A DNA stretch of 64,000 nt, from NCBI GenBank assembly GCA_015233565.1, contig JADFXM010000001.1, positions 1-64,000 on the forward strand, in the 5' to 3' direction. A program made the translations under genes and the position numbers. The stretch comes from Candidatus Rifleibacteriota bacterium. GTDB taxonomy: Bacteria; Muiribacteriota; Ozemobacteria; Ozemobacterales; Ozemobacteraceae. Shown here piece by piece: positions 8,356 through 60,253 of the stretch; the first letter of the stretch is position 1; every line of letters begins with the position of its first letter. A model generated the notes under the pieces. It did not search any database. It was not told where the DNA came from and saw only the letters and a program-made list of their open reading frames with translations.

Positions 8356-10419
8356 TTAGCCGGGAGATTCATAATCGAGATCGTTAAGGATTATATCTAA
8401 AGCATCACTGATTGAAGGTTCCAACTCTCTTTCCCGTCCCGGTAATTTCTCCAAAGTAAAGTCTCTTCCGGGCAAATCTGAGAACACTAAATAAACTTTG
8501 TAATCAATCATCTGCTTTTTTTGAGATTTAAGGAATTTGGCAAAATGGGAGAGCTCAACGTCTACTGCATCAAATCCGTTTTTCCGTAGATTGCCAAGGA
8601 AATCATTTGTTTCCTGAAGTGGTGAAAAGACCGAAAAAACTTTCCCGGTTTTCAACTGAACTCTAGCCCATTCTGGCTTCTTTGCAACATTTTCGGAAAG
8701 AGTGAAAGTCCCGGACAGATCAGAAACTTCTTTTGGAACGATCACTTCTCCGATTTGGGAATCTGATGCAAGAGCTCCACAACTACCGAAAAAGAAGATT
8801 TTCCGAATCTTCTTTTCGTTTACTAATATATCCATCAAAGCGTTTATTTGATCTCCATAAACGCTTTGTGTAAGAAGGAGAGTTTTTGGCTTTCCCATCG
8901 AATCGCTGAAAGCAGCAATAGTGTGGGGAAGATCTTCGTTTGTGAAATGTTTTTGCGGCCATGAATCAGGCGGTCTGGCAGCCAACAGGTCTTCATTTTG
9001 TTTCAATTTAAGCCACTTTTCATTAATTTTGCTGTCTCTGATCGCCCATTTTGAAGGATGTACTCTAAACAAGGTTACTCTTCGAGCGAGGTTGTTCAGA
9101 ACTTTCCAGTGGAAGCCAATTATCGCCGCATCGACCGTTTCAGGAATCACTTTTTCCAGGCACTTTCGATATATCCCTTTCATTACTTCTGAATAATCCA
9201 GGGAATCTGAGGACTTTACAATAGAGAAGGAATCTGTCGGGCGCCCATGCAGATATAATGCACAAGCCAACAATGCTTGCGTTTGAAGCTCCCGCGAAGT
9301 TCCGTAAATCCCGGGTATTACTGCCAAATGTTTTCCTGATCGCGCTTTTCCTATTAAAAGAGTTGTGGTAATTTTCGATCTGGACCGTGTAACCAAGGCT
9401 CCCTCTAAAACTCCTTGTGAGCGAAGCCAGGCATGTAAGCTTTTCTCTGACCCGGCAAAAACAAAAATTTCAAGGTCAGGTTTAGATAAAATCTTCAAAC
9501 CAAGGGGTGTAAATTTTTGTTGTACATAGTCTCTCAAATTGGACAAGGAGTGTGATACGGAAAAATCGATCTTTTTAACTTGTTCTGAGGGTTTAAAAAC
9601 AGAATATGAGTCCAATTTATCAGACTCTGAAGCAATCGTATGAAAAGGAAGTACTAATTGTGATTCGTCGAACTTCTTGCAATCACTCAATCGTCTGGCA
9701 ACTTCTATTATACCCTCGAGCCATTCTGACGTGGAAGCAACTCCATACATTCCCGAAAGTATGATTTCAGCAGCTACCGGAAAAGGAGTTTCAGAAAACA
9801 ATTCTTTCAGATTGCCCTCGGAGCATGCTTTTCGCAAATTGGTGGAAGAAAGACTTTCCTCTTTATAATCAGGAAGAAAATTTACAAAATTAGCGAGAGT
9901 AGAATTTCTGATTCTTTCAGGAAGAGAACTTTTTTCCTGACGTGATTTTATTACTAATTGATAATTCTCACCAAGTCTTTTGAAATCACTGCTTTCCTCC
10001 ATTTTTCCAATCGAATCTGAGCCTAAAATGTGGAAAATTTTGTCTTTGGGATATTTGGAAATAACCAATTCTATTAGATACTCAGAAGGATTTGCTTGAA
10101 AAGCTGGCGCATTTTCAGATTCAGGGTTTCCGACCGATAAAACCTCGATTTTCGGATTATTAATTACGGTCAAAGCTCTTTTTATCAAAAATACTCTGGT
10201 TTGCAGATCAGAAATGCTTTTATCCACTTGACTGAAATTAGGAACAAAAATCAACTTGTCCAGCTTAAGTTTACTGATTGCATCAACTGCAATTCTTAGA
10301 TGGGAATTATGTATAGGATCAAAAGATCCCGGAAAAATTCCTATTCTTTTTTGGGATGCAAAAACAGAATTTGTAAGGATAAAAAAAGAAATCAGCAAAA
10401 GAAAAAATCGTTTTTTCAT
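8356..10419 (-). CDS. Exported protein with N-terminal NadD-like nucleotidyltransferase domain and C-terminal nucleoside-phosphorylase-like region
   Basis: Signal peptide MKKRFFLLLISFFILTNSVFAS, then KRIGIFPGSFDPIHNSHLRIA (NadD/CTP-transf-like), LSSTNLRKA (ISSTxIR-like); C-terminus FFGSCGAL...IGEVIVPKEVSDLSGTF...VDVELSHFAKFL resembles the PNP/UDP family. Confidence 0.7.
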   Translation of the reverse strand: MKKRFFLLLISFFILTNSVFASQKRIGIFPGSFDPIHNSHLRIAVDAISKLKLDKLIFVPNFSQVDKSISDLQTRVFLIKRALTVINNPKIEVLSVGNPESENAPAFQANPSEYLIELVISKYPKDKIFHILGSDSIGKMEESSDFKRLGENYQLVIKSRQEKSSLPERIRNSTLANFVNFLPDYKEESLSSTNLRKACSEGNLKELFSETPFPVAAEIILSGMYGVASTSEWLEGIIEVARRLSDCKKFDESQLVLPFHTIASESDKLDSYSVFKPSEQVKKIDFSVSHSLSNLRDYVQQKFTPLGLKILSKPDLEIFVFAGSEKSLHAWLRSQGVLEGALVTRSRSKITTTLLIGKARSGKHLAVIPGIYGTSRELQTQALLACALYLHGRPTDSFSIVKSSDSLDYSEVMKGIYRKCLEKVIPETVDAAIIGFHWKVLNNLARRVTLFRVHPSKWAIRDSKINEKWLKLKQNEDLLAARPPDSWPQKHFTNEDLPHTIAAFSDSMGKPKTLLLTQSVYGDQINALMDILVNEKKIRKIFFFGSCGALASDSQIGEVIVPKEVSDLSGTFTLSENVAKKPEWARVQLKTGKVFSVFSPLQETNDFLGNLRKNGFDAVDVELSHFAKFLKSQKKQMIDYKVYLVFSDLPGRDFTLEKLPGRERELEPSISDALDIILNDLDYESPG

Positions 10420-10744
10420 ATGCCTCCTCTTCTATTGATATTCATTTAACAGAGTTTTGACTTCATTTCTAGTTTCAAAGACACATTGTCCATTATGATT
10501 CTGATTCCGTCTAATCGTATTTCAAAGTTGAACGTCTCATTGCTCAAACTCTCGCTTAATATGACTTTTCCATAACTCTGCCGGAAAATGTCCCAAAAAG
10601 AGCTTTTCTTGCAATCTTCAAAGTTATCAATTACACATTCATGCTTGTTTCACCATACCGATTTTTCAGAAAACATTACGATTTGAAATTTTCCAAGCGG
10701 TTCAATGCTTGATTCAGCGTTTTAAAAAAAATTTGAATTTAACT

Positions 10745-11953
10745 TCATTTCAGTGATTTTTGATTTTCAGCAAAATTTCCAAAAAAATACAAAAGAATTT
10801 TATCAAAACGTTCTGCCCAATCACTTTCGTGGTGTCTTCCTCCCGCAACTTCAAGATAATAATAGTCGCGACCAGGTAACAACCCTTTCTCCAAAAATAT
10901 TTTTTCTAGGTCTCTGGTGTTCTGAATTCCTTCGTTGAATTCTGAAATATCGTCTCCCTCCTGGGATCCCATGTCAAGCCAAAAACGAACCCCCTTCAAC
11001 CATTCCCCAGTTTTTTTGACTTGTTTCAGAATCCAGGCATTGCCAACCCAGAGTCCCGGCGACACTATTCCGCACATCGAAAAAACTTGTGGATATTTGG
11101 AACAAATATACAATGAAACCAATCCGCCAAAAGAAGAACCACAAATCCCGGTTGTTTCTTTCCCTGGCAAGGTACGGTAGGTTTTATCGATGAAGGGCTT
11201 TACTTCTTCCACGACAAATTTTGCGTATTTTGAGGCTTTTCCACCTTTTTGCCGTTCCTTGTCGCGAATTGGAAGATATTCGTCGACCCGGTCTTCGTTA
11301 TTATATATTCCAACTATAATCATGGGTGGAAGTCGACCCGATTTGATCAACCTTTCAGCAGTTTCATCAGCTTGCCATTCAAATCCTGAAGAGCAAGTCG
11401 AAGCATCAAAAATGTTCTGCCCGTCATGCATATAAAAAACCGGGCATCGCATTTTCCTTTGTTTTTCATAATCGGGGGGAAGATAAACAATGATAGTTCT
11501 CTCATTTTTCAGATTGGAGGAATAGAATTTCTTGTGAAATCTGATATCTCCGGTTAACGTTGATGGGACAGGCCCACCTCCCCACTTTTCGACGATTACG
11601 TCTATTGTGGAATCCTGAATTGCAGTCAATCTTCTGTCCTTGATATCCAACCCTTTCGAGTTTTTTTCAACTGATTTCCAATCCCCTTGTGTAATTTTGA
11701 ATGAAAGCGGGGTATTAATCGGAACTTCAAGATTAAAATGCCAGCTTTTATCCTTTTCTTGAAACAATCTGACTCCATCGGGTTTCCATGATCCGAGTTT
11801 TTCATGATTACCCGCGAGGAAGACACCTTTATTTTTGTCAGTGTCTTTCGGAACTTGAACATTGAATTCAATTTTTATCATCTTTTCACCAAAAACCTGA
11901 TTAGGAGAAAACAGCAAAAGTAACAGAGTAGCCCAAATAAAGAAAAAGTTCAT
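10745..11953 (-). CDS. Exported esterase (esterase D/enterochelin esterase-like alpha/beta hydrolase) with N-terminal CBM20/48-like domain
   Basis: Signal peptide MNFFFIWATLLLLLFSPNQVFG; VFLAGNHEKLGSWKPDGVRLFQ (CBM20-like); RTIIVYLPPDYEKQ...VFYMHDGQNIF, nucleophile elbow GSSFGG. Start refined to 11953 (RBS AGGAGAG). Confidence 0.85.
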   Translation of the reverse strand: MNFFFIWATLLLLLFSPNQVFGEKMIKIEFNVQVPKDTDKNKGVFLAGNHEKLGSWKPDGVRLFQEKDKSWHFNLEVPINTPLSFKITQGDWKSVEKNSKGLDIKDRRLTAIQDSTIDVIVEKWGGGPVPSTLTGDIRFHKKFYSSNLKNERTIIVYLPPDYEKQRKMRCPVFYMHDGQNIFDASTCSSGFEWQADETAERLIKSGRLPPMIIVGIYNNEDRVDEYLPIRDKERQKGGKASKYAKFVVEEVKPFIDKTYRTLPGKETTGICGSSFGGLVSLYICSKYPQVFSMCGIVSPGLWVGNAWILKQVKKTGEWLKGVRFWLDMGSQEGDDISEFNEGIQNTRDLEKIFLEKGLLPGRDYYYLEVAGGRHHESDWAERFDKILLYFFGNFAENQKSLK

Positions 11954-12013
11954 TTTTCTCTCCTGATAATGACCTACTATTCCCTTGCAACAGTTAGGTC
12001 TCAATTTTACTTG

Positions 12014-16615: not shown

Positions 16616-16667
16616 CATTAATAGTTGTTGGTAAAATCCTGCAGAAAAATAATCGGAGGTCTTGATA

Positions 16668-17153
16668 ATGAGGCGTTTATTGATTGCTTTGGCAGTTTTT
16701 ACTTTTGTTCTTCCTGGGTTGGCTTTCGCTCAATGGGGTGGGCATGGGTATCCTCCTTCTCAACCATTTCCGAATGAAAACCATGGCGGATACAATAACG
16801 GAAACGGAAATAACTTGCCACCGGCGTTTCCTCCTGGAAACAACGGCGGATACAATAACGGAAATAATGGCGGATACAATCCTGGCAATGGCCACGGCTT
16901 TCCTCCCCCACCTCCTACACCTCCTGGCGGCAACTGGGGGCATGGCGACCATGGTTATCCTCCCCCCCCTCCTCCTCCACCCTGGGGTCACGACCATGAT
17001 GGTGGCTGGGGACATGATCATGACCACGATCACGATGGTGGCTGGGGTCATGACCACGACCATGATGGTGGCTGGGGTCACGACCATGACCACGATCACG
17101 ATGGTGGTTGGGGCCATGACCACGACGGACATGATCACCATGGTGGCTTTTGA
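16668..17153 (+). CDS. Exported Gly/Asn/Pro- and His/Asp-rich repeat protein, probable metal-binding
   Basis: Signal peptide MRRLLIALAVFTFVLPGLAFA; GGYNNGN repeats, poly-Pro, then four DGGWGHDHD-type repeats ending GHDHHGGF; RBS CGGAGG before the ATG. Confidence 0.85.
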   Translation: MRRLLIALAVFTFVLPGLAFAQWGGHGYPPSQPFPNENHGGYNNGNGNNLPPAFPPGNNGGYNNGNNGGYNPGNGHGFPPPPPTPPGGNWGHGDHGYPPPPPPPPWGHDHDGGWGHDHDHDHDGGWGHDHDHDGGWGHDHDHDHDGGWGHDHDGHDHHGGF

Positions 17154-55028: not shown

Positions 55029-58000
55029 GTGCGACGCGAAGAAGGGAACGAAGGAATCCTCACGCTCTATCCCGCAACCATAAAACTTGAGCAGTTGGTC
55101 TACAATGCTCTTCGCTCGCTTCCCCGACGGTCAGCAACCCCTGGTCGGGAATACAGGAAACCTTCGACGTATGCGTTGGCTGCAGCACGCCAAGAACAAT
55201 GGAATGAAGCGCGGGAACAGCTAATTCGGGGGGAAGTGGCTACTTGGCTTGAAGGGTTTCCAGGTGCGGGTCGCATGCTGTCAGCGATTCGAAATCTGCT
55301 CCGACGGGAAGAGCTTGATGATGATACCAGGTTGTCAGTGGCGCTTAAGATTCTGAATCCCGATATGCCACTTGTTCGGGCTGACGAGATCGTCACGCCA
55401 AATTGGCTTTTGACGAACCCTGTGGAAGGGTATCAACTCATTAGCGGGCCAGTTCCCGATTTCCTTGATCAGCTCGAATTAGAGCCTTGGCTTTCGCATT
55501 TGAAACAGCGCGAGGTGAATGTTCGAGGGAGAGCCAAAGTGCACGATATTGAGCTCAATGAAGACATTCTTCGTATCCATCTGTTGGGAACATCCCGAAT
55601 AAGGTTTGGAAAGTTGTGGGAAGAACAACGACGACAGAGTCCAGATAGCGACCACAAAGGTCTTGTAATGCTTATGGAGCGAAAGCAAATGACAGATGAG
55701 GATCTTATCCTCCTTCTTTCTGCTTGCCTGGGCCAGTTTCGGCCGCTGAAAGAAATTATTGAAAATGCTTCAGAATTAGCACGAAGGGAAAGCGTTTCAT
55801 ACTTTGAAGAGAGTAGTGCAACTCATCTGCTGCAACAGCCTCGCCGGGAAGTTTTGAAGCAGCTTAACGAGCGTATTGAGAATTTTTCCCGTTGTAATCT
55901 TCAACGGCTTGATGAATGGGCTGATCAATACCGCCTTGAAAAAAGGATTAGTCTCCCCCGCGCGGCAGTTATTCTTTCTGTTCCGGCATATCAGTGGGTG
56001 AAACCCCCCAAGCAAGATTATGTGGCCCAACTATTAGGTTTCTTCGAAAAGCGGATTGCACAATCCATTTCACGTGGTTCACTCGCACGGATGATCATCA
56101 GAAAAACGAGTCCGATTATTGATCTCACCGAACTTGGCACTGATCATATGAGCGCTGCCGGAATTCTTGATCAACTCTTGGAACGTTCTGGCACAGCCAT
56201 ATCCCTTCCCCAAAGCATATTTGCGATGGATCCGTCTTTGGAGAAGCGTCTCCGAACACTTGTCAGTCACGCCGATCTCTTGCGAAGGGATACGGGAATT
56301 AATGGTCTTTATATGGGTTTTCCATTCGTGTTAGTTCAGACTCGTGGTGATGATGTGAAGCCGAGGGTAGCTCCGATTTTGCTCTTGCCAATTCGGATTG
56401 GAATCGAAGTCGGGCAGCGCAGTCGTTTTACAGTAGCCTTTGATAGCGAACGGGAAGAAGTGCGTATCAATCCGGCATTGCAAAATATTTTATCACCCGA
56501 GGTAATGGAGCGCTGGACGGTAACTCGGGACACAGTTTTAAGCTCCACTGTCACAACTTCTGTGGTAATGGACGAATACTCTGTCCTCACAACCTCTATC
56601 CGGCAGCCCTCACTAAACCGATTGCCTGGAGCCGATGTCAAAGTTTCTAAAGACGCCATGGAACTTACCGCTGCAGCGGTTTTATTTCAGGTCACGTTTG
56701 TTGCCCAAGCCATCGTTGAGGATATTCGTCAATTGAAAGCTATTCCTCCTGGAGGAACAGGACTTGAATCGATGCTGAGAATACACGAATTAACCCCGCA
56801 GAGTTTATCCAATCTTTCTGTGGACATGATTGATCCGTTTGCGACTGCTGAAAGCGATCCGACACAAGATCTTGCAGTTCTTCAAGCGCGCAACCCGCCT
56901 GGTCTGGTAATCGAAGGTCCACCTGGGACAGGTAAAAGTCAGACCATCGTCAATATGGTCGCAGATTCGATCGGTCGAAAAAAAAGTATTCTTAATTGTC
57001 TGCCAGAAGCAAGCTGCTCTCGACGTTGTTTACAAACGTCTACAAAGAGAAGGGTTAGAAGACCGGGTAATGATCGTGAGGGATGTCATCAAGGATCGGC
57101 GATCAGTGATAGAGGCAATACGTAATCAGGTTGAGGCGATCTTTTCGAACACTGCACCGGTAACAATTTGGATACACCAACGCAAAACTGTGCTTGAGCG
57201 GATCCAGCGGTTAGAGCATCAACTCAATGCCCAAAATGAGATAATTCACCGACGGGATGAGCTTTCTTTATTAACCTATCGCGAGTTGATCGGGGAGCTT
57301 GTGGCGATTGATGAAATGCCTCTCCTGGATGCAGTGATCTTCGAATCCTTTTGTCTGACTGGACTGCCGAGCGCGTCAACGCTGCAAGCGATGTCTGCAC
57401 TGGCCTCGTCGATTTGTGGCTCCGGTCGGACTTTGAAATCAATCCGCTTGCGTTTGTGAAACAGTTTGACTCTGCCCCAGCTCTAGTGGAGCGCTTTCAC
57501 AAGGTTTTTGAAATTTTTTGCAAAGCAGAGAAGTGGCGATGGAAACTGCCAGGAAACGCAGCCGAAACCTGGGCCGTGGAGGACGGAGAAAAATTACGAG
57601 AATGGGCTGATTCTAACCGTTCCAAGCTGTGTTCTTTAAATCAGACCGAGCTTGAGGAGTTAGACCTTTTTGTTGACACCTTCCACGGGAGAGATGGACC
57701 CCGTTCCAGTGGCAAGGCAATCATAACACAGCTAAAAGTGGTCATGGATAAACTTCTTTCGCTGCCAAATGTTCGGTATGTTCGATCACTTTACGAATTA
57801 GTGCAGGAACAGTCAGATCTTGAGTTGGGTGGTTGGATTGTGCTTACAACCCAGGCAATAGGACCCGTTTCGTTTTTTGGTCGCTTGAATCCATGGCGAT
57901 TCTTCAAACGGTGGCGAATTCGTGGGCTTCTGGAAATAATGGCGCCAGAAGTTTCAGACGAACTGATGAAGCACTTCTTAGAAACCGCTCAGCTTGAACT

Positions 58001-60253
58001 TACGTTGCGAAGGTTACGATCCAATGTTGATTACATTTTCCGATTTATTGGACTGCCTCCTCAAGACTTCAAACATGCTACTACCGAGGATCTAATCAAA
58101 CCGGCAGGGAGGTTTCTTGATGCTCTTATGCGGGTGTCGGAGCTTGCAGACGCGATTGGGGTGGCCCCGGAACAAAAGCGTCTCTTTGATGCGTTACGTC
58201 AGAAGCGGGTCGGTGCATTTGCCATTCACTTTAGTGAGATTGACAAAGCCTTAGTGCGATACGATGCTCGGAAGAATAGTCTTTCTGCTATTGATACCCT
58301 CGAACCTTGGTTCAAGGAAGGCTGGCTTGCGGTGTGCCGAAGGCGCGTAATGAGTAACAAACCAACAGACGATATCATCGACCCGATTATCGAAAAACTT
58401 CCGACATTACCGCCTATCAGATGTTTAGGATTAAGTCACGAGAGCATTCGTCGGATGTTTGGGCAATGTTTGCGGCGCTTCGCGTATCTGACCAACATTT
58501 GAAGGTGATGAACCCAGGGGTGCTTGGGGAAGCAACGCGGCGGCTTATACGACGGGAAGCTTGCCTTGCCTGGAAGGCCAGAATGGAGCACAACAATCAA
58601 TTGCTGCTCAGTGAGCATGAGGAAATTCAGGAGCTAGTTCGGTCCCTGGCCCAAGCAGAGGGAGAACTTCGGCTACTGAACAGGCAAGCTATATCCTGCA
58701 ATATCGATCCGAGAAAGCTTCGAAACAGGGAATCGTGGAATGATATTACCCGATTCACCGGGCCGCGAGCGAGGCGATTGCGTGAATTCATTGACATGGG
58801 TTCCGAGATTGGGTTGATGGAATTGCGCCCAGTGTGGCTCATGGGGCCAGACGTCGTTAGTCGTATGCTTCCGCTGAAGAAAGCACTCTTTGATAGGGTT
58901 GTTTATGATGAAGCATCACAGATGCCGATTGAATTCGCTGTTCCGAGCCTGTTCAAAGGAAATGTCGTGGTTGTTAGTGGCGACGAAAAGCAGTTGCCGC
59001 CTATGTCATTCTTCTCAAGCCATGCGGCATTAGACGAAGATGATTCAACTGATTTCGATGGCGAAGCAGATGACCTGACCGATGATGAGCGTGCTTTAGC
59101 CACTGAGATCTAGAATCGGCGAGAGATAAAGGATTGTTCCAATCTTCTGGAACTTGCAAAGGCTGTCTTGCCGACAGTTGTTTTGAAAATACATTATCGC
59201 TCTGCGTTCCGTAAGCTCATTGCATTCTCTAACAACGCTTTTTACAAAGGGCAACTCAACGTGCCGGTACTCCATCCAACTTCAGAAATAGATCGGCAAC
59301 GTCCGCTTGAAGTTATTCAAGTCAATGGTCTTTATGAAGATCGGATGAATAAACCTGAAGCCGATACTGTAGTGAACTTACTGGCATCCATCTGGTGCTC
59401 ACAAGAGCGGCCGGTTCCATCAATTGGAGTGGTAACTTTTAATCGCAATCAAGCAGACCTTATCGAAGAATCGCTCGAACTGCGTGCCGAGGAGGATGAA
59501 ATCTTCAGATTGGCCTACATTAGGGAACGGCGGCGGTCTGAGTTTGGTGAAGACATGGGCTTTTTTGTAAAGAATGTAGAGAACGTCCAGGGGGATGAGC
59601 GAGATCAAATAATCTTTTCGACTACGTTTGGCCGGAACAAAAAGGGAACTTTCCGACGGAATTTCGGTGTTCTGGGGCAGAGTGGCGGGGAGCGACGGCT
59701 TAATGTCGCCATAACCCGAGCTCGCCAGAAGGTTACTTTGCTTACATCAATGCCTCTGGAGGAGATTTCAGATTTGGTTGGGAAGGTAGCAAAACCCCAG
59801 CAACCGAGAGACTTCCTTCAGTTGTATTTGGCGTATGCTATTGCATTGTCTGGGGGCCAACATGTCCGAAGTCAAGAGATCCTAAGCCAAGTTTTGGGAG
59901 AGCGCACTCAAACACTTGGCAATATTTCAATGGCAACCGACGGATTATTAAGGTCGGTCGCAAGTTTTATTGAAAGTATGGGTTTAACACCAACATCTTC
60001 AAATGATGGTAGCGCCTTTGCCCTCGATTTTGCAATTCGGCATGAGAGAAAGGGAACCTTTGGTATCGGTATTGAATGTGGTACACAGCGCCATCCTATT
60101 CTTGTGACAGCACGCGCGAGGGAAATATGGCCTCGCAGTGTAACGCAAAAAAATATTCCGACCATTCACCGCGTTTCCATTCGCGGGTGGTATCACAATC
60201 GAGAAGCAGAACAAAACCGGCTTCGACAGGCGATTGAAGAAGCATTAACTTAG
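55029..60253 (+). pseudogene. Superfamily 1 (AAA_11/AAA_12, UPF1-like) helicase with C-terminal REase-like (MTES_1575/Vsr-type) domain, broken by multiple frameshifts and a nonsense codon
   Basis: GPPGTGKSQTIVNMVAD (56.9 kb), DEASQMPIEFAVPSLF and GDEKQLPPMSFF (58.9 kb), VENVQGDERDQIIFSTTFG...GGERRLNVAITRARQKV (59.6 kb), C-terminal ALDFAIRHERKGTFGIGIECGTQRHP...ARAREIWPRSV. Open frames 55029-57125, 57070-57459, 57351-58502, 58421-59113, 59168-60253 join in homologous order. Confidence 0.8.

Follow-up and report, generated by a model that had tools for sequence, protein, structure and literature searches.

A family of putatively exported proteins joining a NadD-like nucleotidyltransferase domain to a nucleoside phosphorylase-like domain

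The stretch of DNA analysed here, 64,000 nucleotides long and called the window below, carries on its reverse strand an open reading frame that begins with ATG and encodes a protein of 687 aa (Table 1). The original prediction had placed at this locus a NadD-like nucleotidyltransferase, led by a Sec-type signal peptide and fused to a region resembling PNP/MTA phosphorylases; the reading frame lies where it was described, and the two homologies are indeed combined in one protein, each domain scoring above the curated cut-off of its Pfam model. The DNA 5′ of the frame reads GAAGAGGAGGCAT-ATG, which contains a strong Shine-Dalgarno sequence, and the protein opens with MKKRFFLLLISFFILTNSVFA, a basic n-region followed by a hydrophobic core. 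A start 3′ of this leader, put forward earlier as a possible objection, is ruled out, short of a rare start codon, because the sequence, read directly, holds no in-frame ATG, GTG or TTG between the hydrophobic stretch and the first NadD strand. The sole TTG near the leader is codon 8, within the hydrophobic stretch.

A gene for an esterase, exported and bearing a starch-binding-type domain, precedes the fusion gene by about 325 bp. In a congener (G001) only about 40 bp separate the same esterase gene from the fusion gene downstream of it, and the two may therefore be co-transcribed there. The genes downstream of the fusion gene in the window are prepilin-like, but the prepilin-type N-methylation motif has 64–137 matches per genome, which is unusually many (G000, the genome of the window, and G001, G005, G007, G012 and G017), so that with more than 100 such genes in the genome we regard this proximity as uninformative. 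The host also has a separate ordinary NadD (G000:C118), along with two more CTP_transf_like proteins and five PNP-family proteins of the ordinary kind. As the ordinary NadD is kept, NAD synthesis does not require the fusion copy.

Table 1. Positions in the window of the fusion gene, its parts and the adjoining esterase gene, followed by the domain architectures of the family and the genomes that carry them.
Feature	Position or genome	Strand	Basis
Complete ORF (687 aa and stop codon) with signal peptide and NadD-like, middle and PNP-like domains	8356..10419	(-)	Homologues with the same architecture
Shine-Dalgarno AGGAGG	10423..10428	(-)	Just 5′ of the ATG; read from sequence
Predicted Sec-type signal peptide, residues 1–21	10357..10419	(-)	Hydropathy and charge; cut likely after VFA, by eye
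NadD-like HIGH-type nucleotidyltransferase domain, residues 24–228	9736..10350	(-)	Pfam, NCBIfam, PDB profile, Foldseek of a low-confidence model, tree
HNSH, residues 37–40, HxxH nucleotide-binding motif	10300..10311	(-)	Both His in 12/12 of the exported clade
GSD, residues 133–135, Asp corresponding to Asp-109 of E. coli NadD	10015..10023	(-)	11/12 of the exported clade; role from PMC1249556
SSTNLR, residues 191–196, SSTxxR motif	9832..9849	(-)	12/12 of the exported clade
Middle domain, residues 284–450	9070..9570	(-)	Common to the family; without detectable relatives
PNP-superfamily domain, residues ~499–684	8368..8925	(-)	Pfam 18/18 members; PDB profile; hhalign
SPLQET, residues 599–604, corresponding to DAPYRET/GPSYET of cytoplasmic PNPs	8608..8625	(-)	Glu603 18/18
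VDVE, residues 619–622, with Glu622, corresponding to VEME	8554..8565	(-)	Glu 17/18
SD, residues 647–648, corresponding to the purine-contacting Asp/Asn	8476..8481	(-)	16 Asp and 2 Asn of 18
Exported esterase (CBM_20 + PF00756) adjoining the fusion gene	10745..12004	(-)	Pfam; association only
Leader-NadD-mid-PNP	Window; G001, G007, G012 (twice), G005, G017, G028, G227		
Leader-mid-PNP-NadD (swapped order)	G029, G034, G037		
Leader-mid-PNP alone	G031, G027 (twice), G035, G033, G001		
Leader-NadD alone	G002		
Leader-X-mid-PNP	G000, G001, G002, G003, G009, G012, G029, G034, G037		
Mid-PNP with unmatched C-terminal domain	G001 (one protein)		

The protein belongs to a small and apparently undescribed family. 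Beyond the window we found eight further proteins of the same domain order, one of them in another phylum, while relatives of the middle and PNP-like parts occur in about 18 of 40 genomes of the same phylum (protein and profile searches) and, outside it, in a single genome (G227) among the 382 searched; a second genome sample around G227, largely overlapping the first, yielded no more. The genome of the window itself encodes two paralogues (contigs C97 and C152). As several genomes carry the same fusion, it is not an assembly chimera. Neither is a phage or plasmid origin indicated, with no PHROGs match, no viral relative and plasmid matches spanning the NadD part only, and we reject decay for the window copy; a decayed remnant of the fusion gene with an internal deletion was seen in G008:C49 (L138:5504-6025 and L005). 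The family is under purifying selection, as judged from one pair of relatives (G005 vs G017), for which dN/dS is about 0.15 overall, 0.09 for the NadD-like domain and 0.13 for the middle and PNP-like domains; the leader stands at about 0.7, as is usual for signal peptides. In one architecture a different N-terminal part, X, takes the place of the NadD-like domain. This part showed a weak match to the poly(A) polymerase head in 5/5 tested proteins (best E 0.007, below cut-off) and carries GGTVRD and SDxDLI motifs, with no match in the PDB. The G001 protein with a C-terminal domain lacking a Pfam match (G001:C44, L136:3005-5314) is likewise exported and adjoins several prepilin genes.

A hydrophobic leader was present in every family member checked, across relatives sharing only about 20–40% identity. 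In 10 exported NadD-bearing proteins the maximal 12-residue mean hydropathy ahead of the NadD domain ranged from 1.95 to 3.33, whereas in ordinary NadDs (n = 20) the corresponding N-terminal stretch was either too short or reached at most 0.91, and the remaining members have leaders comparable to those of the former. A positive n-region, a hydrophobic core and an AxA-like site, judged from hydropathy and by eye, are kept in the relatives, and the predicted signal peptide of the original reading thus recurs throughout. One of the G012 proteins has a spacer between the leader and what comes next, and the G028 protein is cut by a contig end and lacks its start codon. From these leaders we infer that the fusion protein is exported via Sec.

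For the N-terminal domain, the likeness to NadD holds for the fold and for the nucleotide side of the active site and fails on the acceptor side. CTP_transf_like (PF01467) matched residues 28–197 with E=6.1e-16, and the family profile found B. subtilis NadD (1kam) among solved structures at 1.2e-25. The best NCBIfam models were NadD models, each below its own cut-off (for TIGR00482, 77 bits vs 112). The domain shares with NadD (TIGR00482/PRK07152; PDB 1kam) the HxxH, mobile-loop Lys/Arg, GxD and SSTxxR elements, and the loop Lys is kept in 12/12 exported NadD-like domains; the G037 protein has a deletion through GxD. In E. coli NadD, roles have been assigned to His-19, His-45, Arg-46 and Asp-109 (PMC1249556). 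The deviation HNSH, singled out in the original prediction, is by its residues no defect, both catalytic His being present, and the host's ordinary NadD carries HKQH at this motif. The sYTxxT motif and a Trp are known from NadD structures to act in nicotinate binding. In the exported clade both Thr of sYTxxT are found in 0/12, the Trp in 0/12 and the His-45 equivalent in 3/12, against 16–19 of 20 ordinary NadDs for these residues, though the sYTxxT columns adjoin an insertion and the exact counts depend on the alignment. This pattern reads as one of chemistry kept and acceptor changed, and since the ATP and catalytic residues are retained (in 11–12 of 12) and those recognizing NaMN lost, adenylylation of NaMN by this domain is unlikely.

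In a maximum-likelihood tree the exported NadD domains (11) separate from ordinary ones (16) at 99/99. A swapped-order protein and the protein from the other phylum both fall in the exported clade, as does an exported protein with NadD alone. Going by the first two, export and the association with the PNP module both appear to be old, the domain order having apparently changed within the clade. An AlphaFold model of the NadD domain alone reached pLDDT 54, and all 50 Foldseek matches shown were NadD structures, but as they superpose poorly we take this structure search, which the original prediction had proposed for both halves, as supporting only. The model of the whole protein, made without an alignment (mean pLDDT 36), was discarded.

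The C-terminal domain belongs to the NP-I superfamily, although the narrower comparison with PNP or MTA phosphorylase stood only in part. PNP_UDP_1 (PF01048) matched residues 531–627 with E=9.7e-7 (28.9 bits vs a gathering score of 25.1) and was found in 18/18 family members at E<=0.1; the family profile retrieved S. solfataricus MTA phosphorylase (1jds) at 9.2e-8, and hhalign against 13 ordinary cytoplasmic PNP-family proteins gave a probability of 99.3 (E=1.1e-20), pairing SPLxET with GPSYET/DAPYRET, VDxE with VEME and SD with SD/TD. Compared with DeoD-type PNP, MTA phosphorylase and cytoplasmic phosphorylases with the DAPYRET motif, it shares the C-terminal two thirds of the fold, the Glu of ET, the Glu of VDxE and the Asp/Asn of SD, and the base-binding pair, Glu603 and Asp/Asn648, is complete in all 18. 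In trimeric PNP the base is held by the corresponding Glu and Asn, and replacing this Asn with Asp brings adenosine activity (PMC6128611). In E. coli PNP the purine receives a proton from Asp204, Arg87 being the residue that binds phosphate (PMC6193948). Unlike NP-I proteins, the family is exported, has a unique middle domain ahead of this one and shows an equivalent of Arg87 in 0/18 members, which speaks to the hexameric-type phosphate site, other designs being possible. Because this Arg is replaced throughout, phosphorolysis is not assured, and the residues make hydrolysis as likely. No family-level NCBIfam model matched the PNP part above its cut-off. The best match was HpnG (TIGR03468), the hopanoid-associated phosphorylase, at E=1.4e-6 but with 28 bits vs a cut-off of 187, and HpnG is a stand-alone enzyme.

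Other PNP-like proteins came up beside the family. In the window's genome a 969-aa ORF that combines a PNP domain at its N terminus with a radical-SAM domain sits immediately upstream of the exported poly(A)-polymerase-head-like/mid-PNP paralogue (G000:C152:30974-36575; L095:4975-7881 and L137:1000-3576), and neighbours of a similar kind were also seen in G002, G003, G029 and G037. In another phylum, a 713-aa protein (G047:C9, L097:2336-4474) has a C-terminal PNP-like part with YGSTAG, ACETDKY and VEVELGH motifs and no signal peptide.

Between the two recognizable domains lies a middle domain of ~170–200 aa that the original prediction had left out. It matched nothing in Pfam or among the sequences of solved structures, nor the PNP domain of the fusion, and hhalign gave no support to an internal duplication of the latter.

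NadD and other nucleotidyltransferases of the HIGH type depend on ATP and are considered cytoplasmic enzymes. A conserved exported family with catalytic residues would imply either that nucleotides are converted in the periplasm or the medium, or that the proteins act on other cells. We tentatively favor the reading that the protein is an exported, catalytically competent enzyme with two activities on adenine nucleotides and an acceptor other than NaMN, in keeping with the earlier notion of a repurposed nucleotide-binding or salvage enzyme. After translocation by Sec it would work outside the cytoplasm, where the NadD-like domain would bind ATP or an adenine dinucleotide and carry out nucleotidyl transfer at the alpha-phosphate in either direction. 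The PNP-like domain would bind an adenine-type nucleoside or nucleotide and split its N-glycosidic bond by hydrolysis or phosphorolysis, and the middle domain could offer a further binding surface. Together the domains would act on adenine nucleotides encountered outside the cell, and their being joined in both orders suggests that the two reactions are coupled. The simplest role would be scavenging, by which a dinucleotide or ATP is broken down to smaller parts and the base. This reading as a whole, with catalysis, adenine preference, direction and the scavenging role as its inferred parts, draws on the strong Shine-Dalgarno sequence with no start codon after the leader, the family-wide leaders, the single exported clade, the kept catalytic and base-site residues, the low dN/dS and the host's own NadD. 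Against this reading stand the lack of a known extracytoplasmic ATP source for the organism, the poor whole-protein model, the missing phosphate-binding Arg, the Asn at 648 in two relatives, and the incomplete G028 and G037 proteins. The ATP supply could be accounted for by the pyrophosphorolytic direction, by nucleotides from lysed neighbours or by ATP in a target cell. A broader proposal, and a rather doubtful one, is that of a modular class, in which an exported base-cleaving PNP-like module is joined in either order to varied nucleotidyltransferases, NadD-like or poly(A)-polymerase-head-like, with ATP- or dinucleotide-dependent chemistry outside the cytoplasm.

Among the alternatives, an effector and a pure binding role weigh most. 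The protein could be an exported effector whose enzymatic core reaches other cells, uses their ATP or NAD and depletes or modifies nucleotides, which would solve the ATP problem and would suit the modular joining of the PNP-like part to differing N-terminal parts. ATP-cleaving PNP effectors do exist in the Detocs anti-phage systems, where a PNP-superfamily domain acts on adenine nucleotides (PMC11249213), but those act inside the cell whereas this one would act outward. As the fusion had no PADLOC match, no immunity-like neighbour was recognized, a known delivery domain is absent and the nearby prepilin genes are uninformative, we consider an effector unlikely. It also seems improbable that both domains are merely nucleotide-binding pockets without catalysis, as in a sensor or capture protein. 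Exported plant storage proteins with the PNP fold are a precedent for such binding, the acceptor-site and phosphate-site residues are lost, and ATP is not expected outside the cytoplasm; however, the residues for chemistry, beyond those for binding, are kept nearly everywhere across very divergent relatives, and dN/dS is low. An exported NaMN/NMN adenylyltransferase proper, within extracellular NAD handling, would agree with the NadD models being the best matches and with the ability of PNPs to use nicotinamide riboside too, but we find it very unlikely for a clade that lacks sYTxxT, the stacking Trp and the His-45 equivalent and falls outside ordinary NadDs at 99/99. A cytoplasmic enzyme tethered by the hydrophobic stretch would have access to ATP, but this is the least probable reading, as the positive-inside rule, given the KKR ahead of the stretch, predicts that what follows it toward the C terminus is outside, AxA-like sites are present, several members have a NadD domain that begins 2–3 residues past the predicted cut, and in swapped-order members the leader precedes the PNP part instead.

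Returning to the favored reading of a two-activity exported enzyme, its closest formal parallels are NadR, NadM-Nudix and NadD-YqeK(HD), in which an adenylyltransferase is fused to a second nucleotide enzyme, but these are cytoplasmic and pair it with a kinase, a Nudix enzyme or an HD phosphohydrolase where the present family has a PNP-like domain. In agreement with the original prediction, which knew of no precedent, such a fusion was not described in the open-licence literature searched, outside which most subscription journals lie.

Two further observations concern the window at large. A DUF4011 / AAA_11-AAA_12 helicase / REase_MTES_1575 protein is spread over four ORFs at 55029-60253 and is apparently frameshifted, and at 16662-17153 a repetitive Gly/His/Asp-rich ORF (GWGHDHDHDGG) with a leader lies where long overlapping frames are open on both strands.
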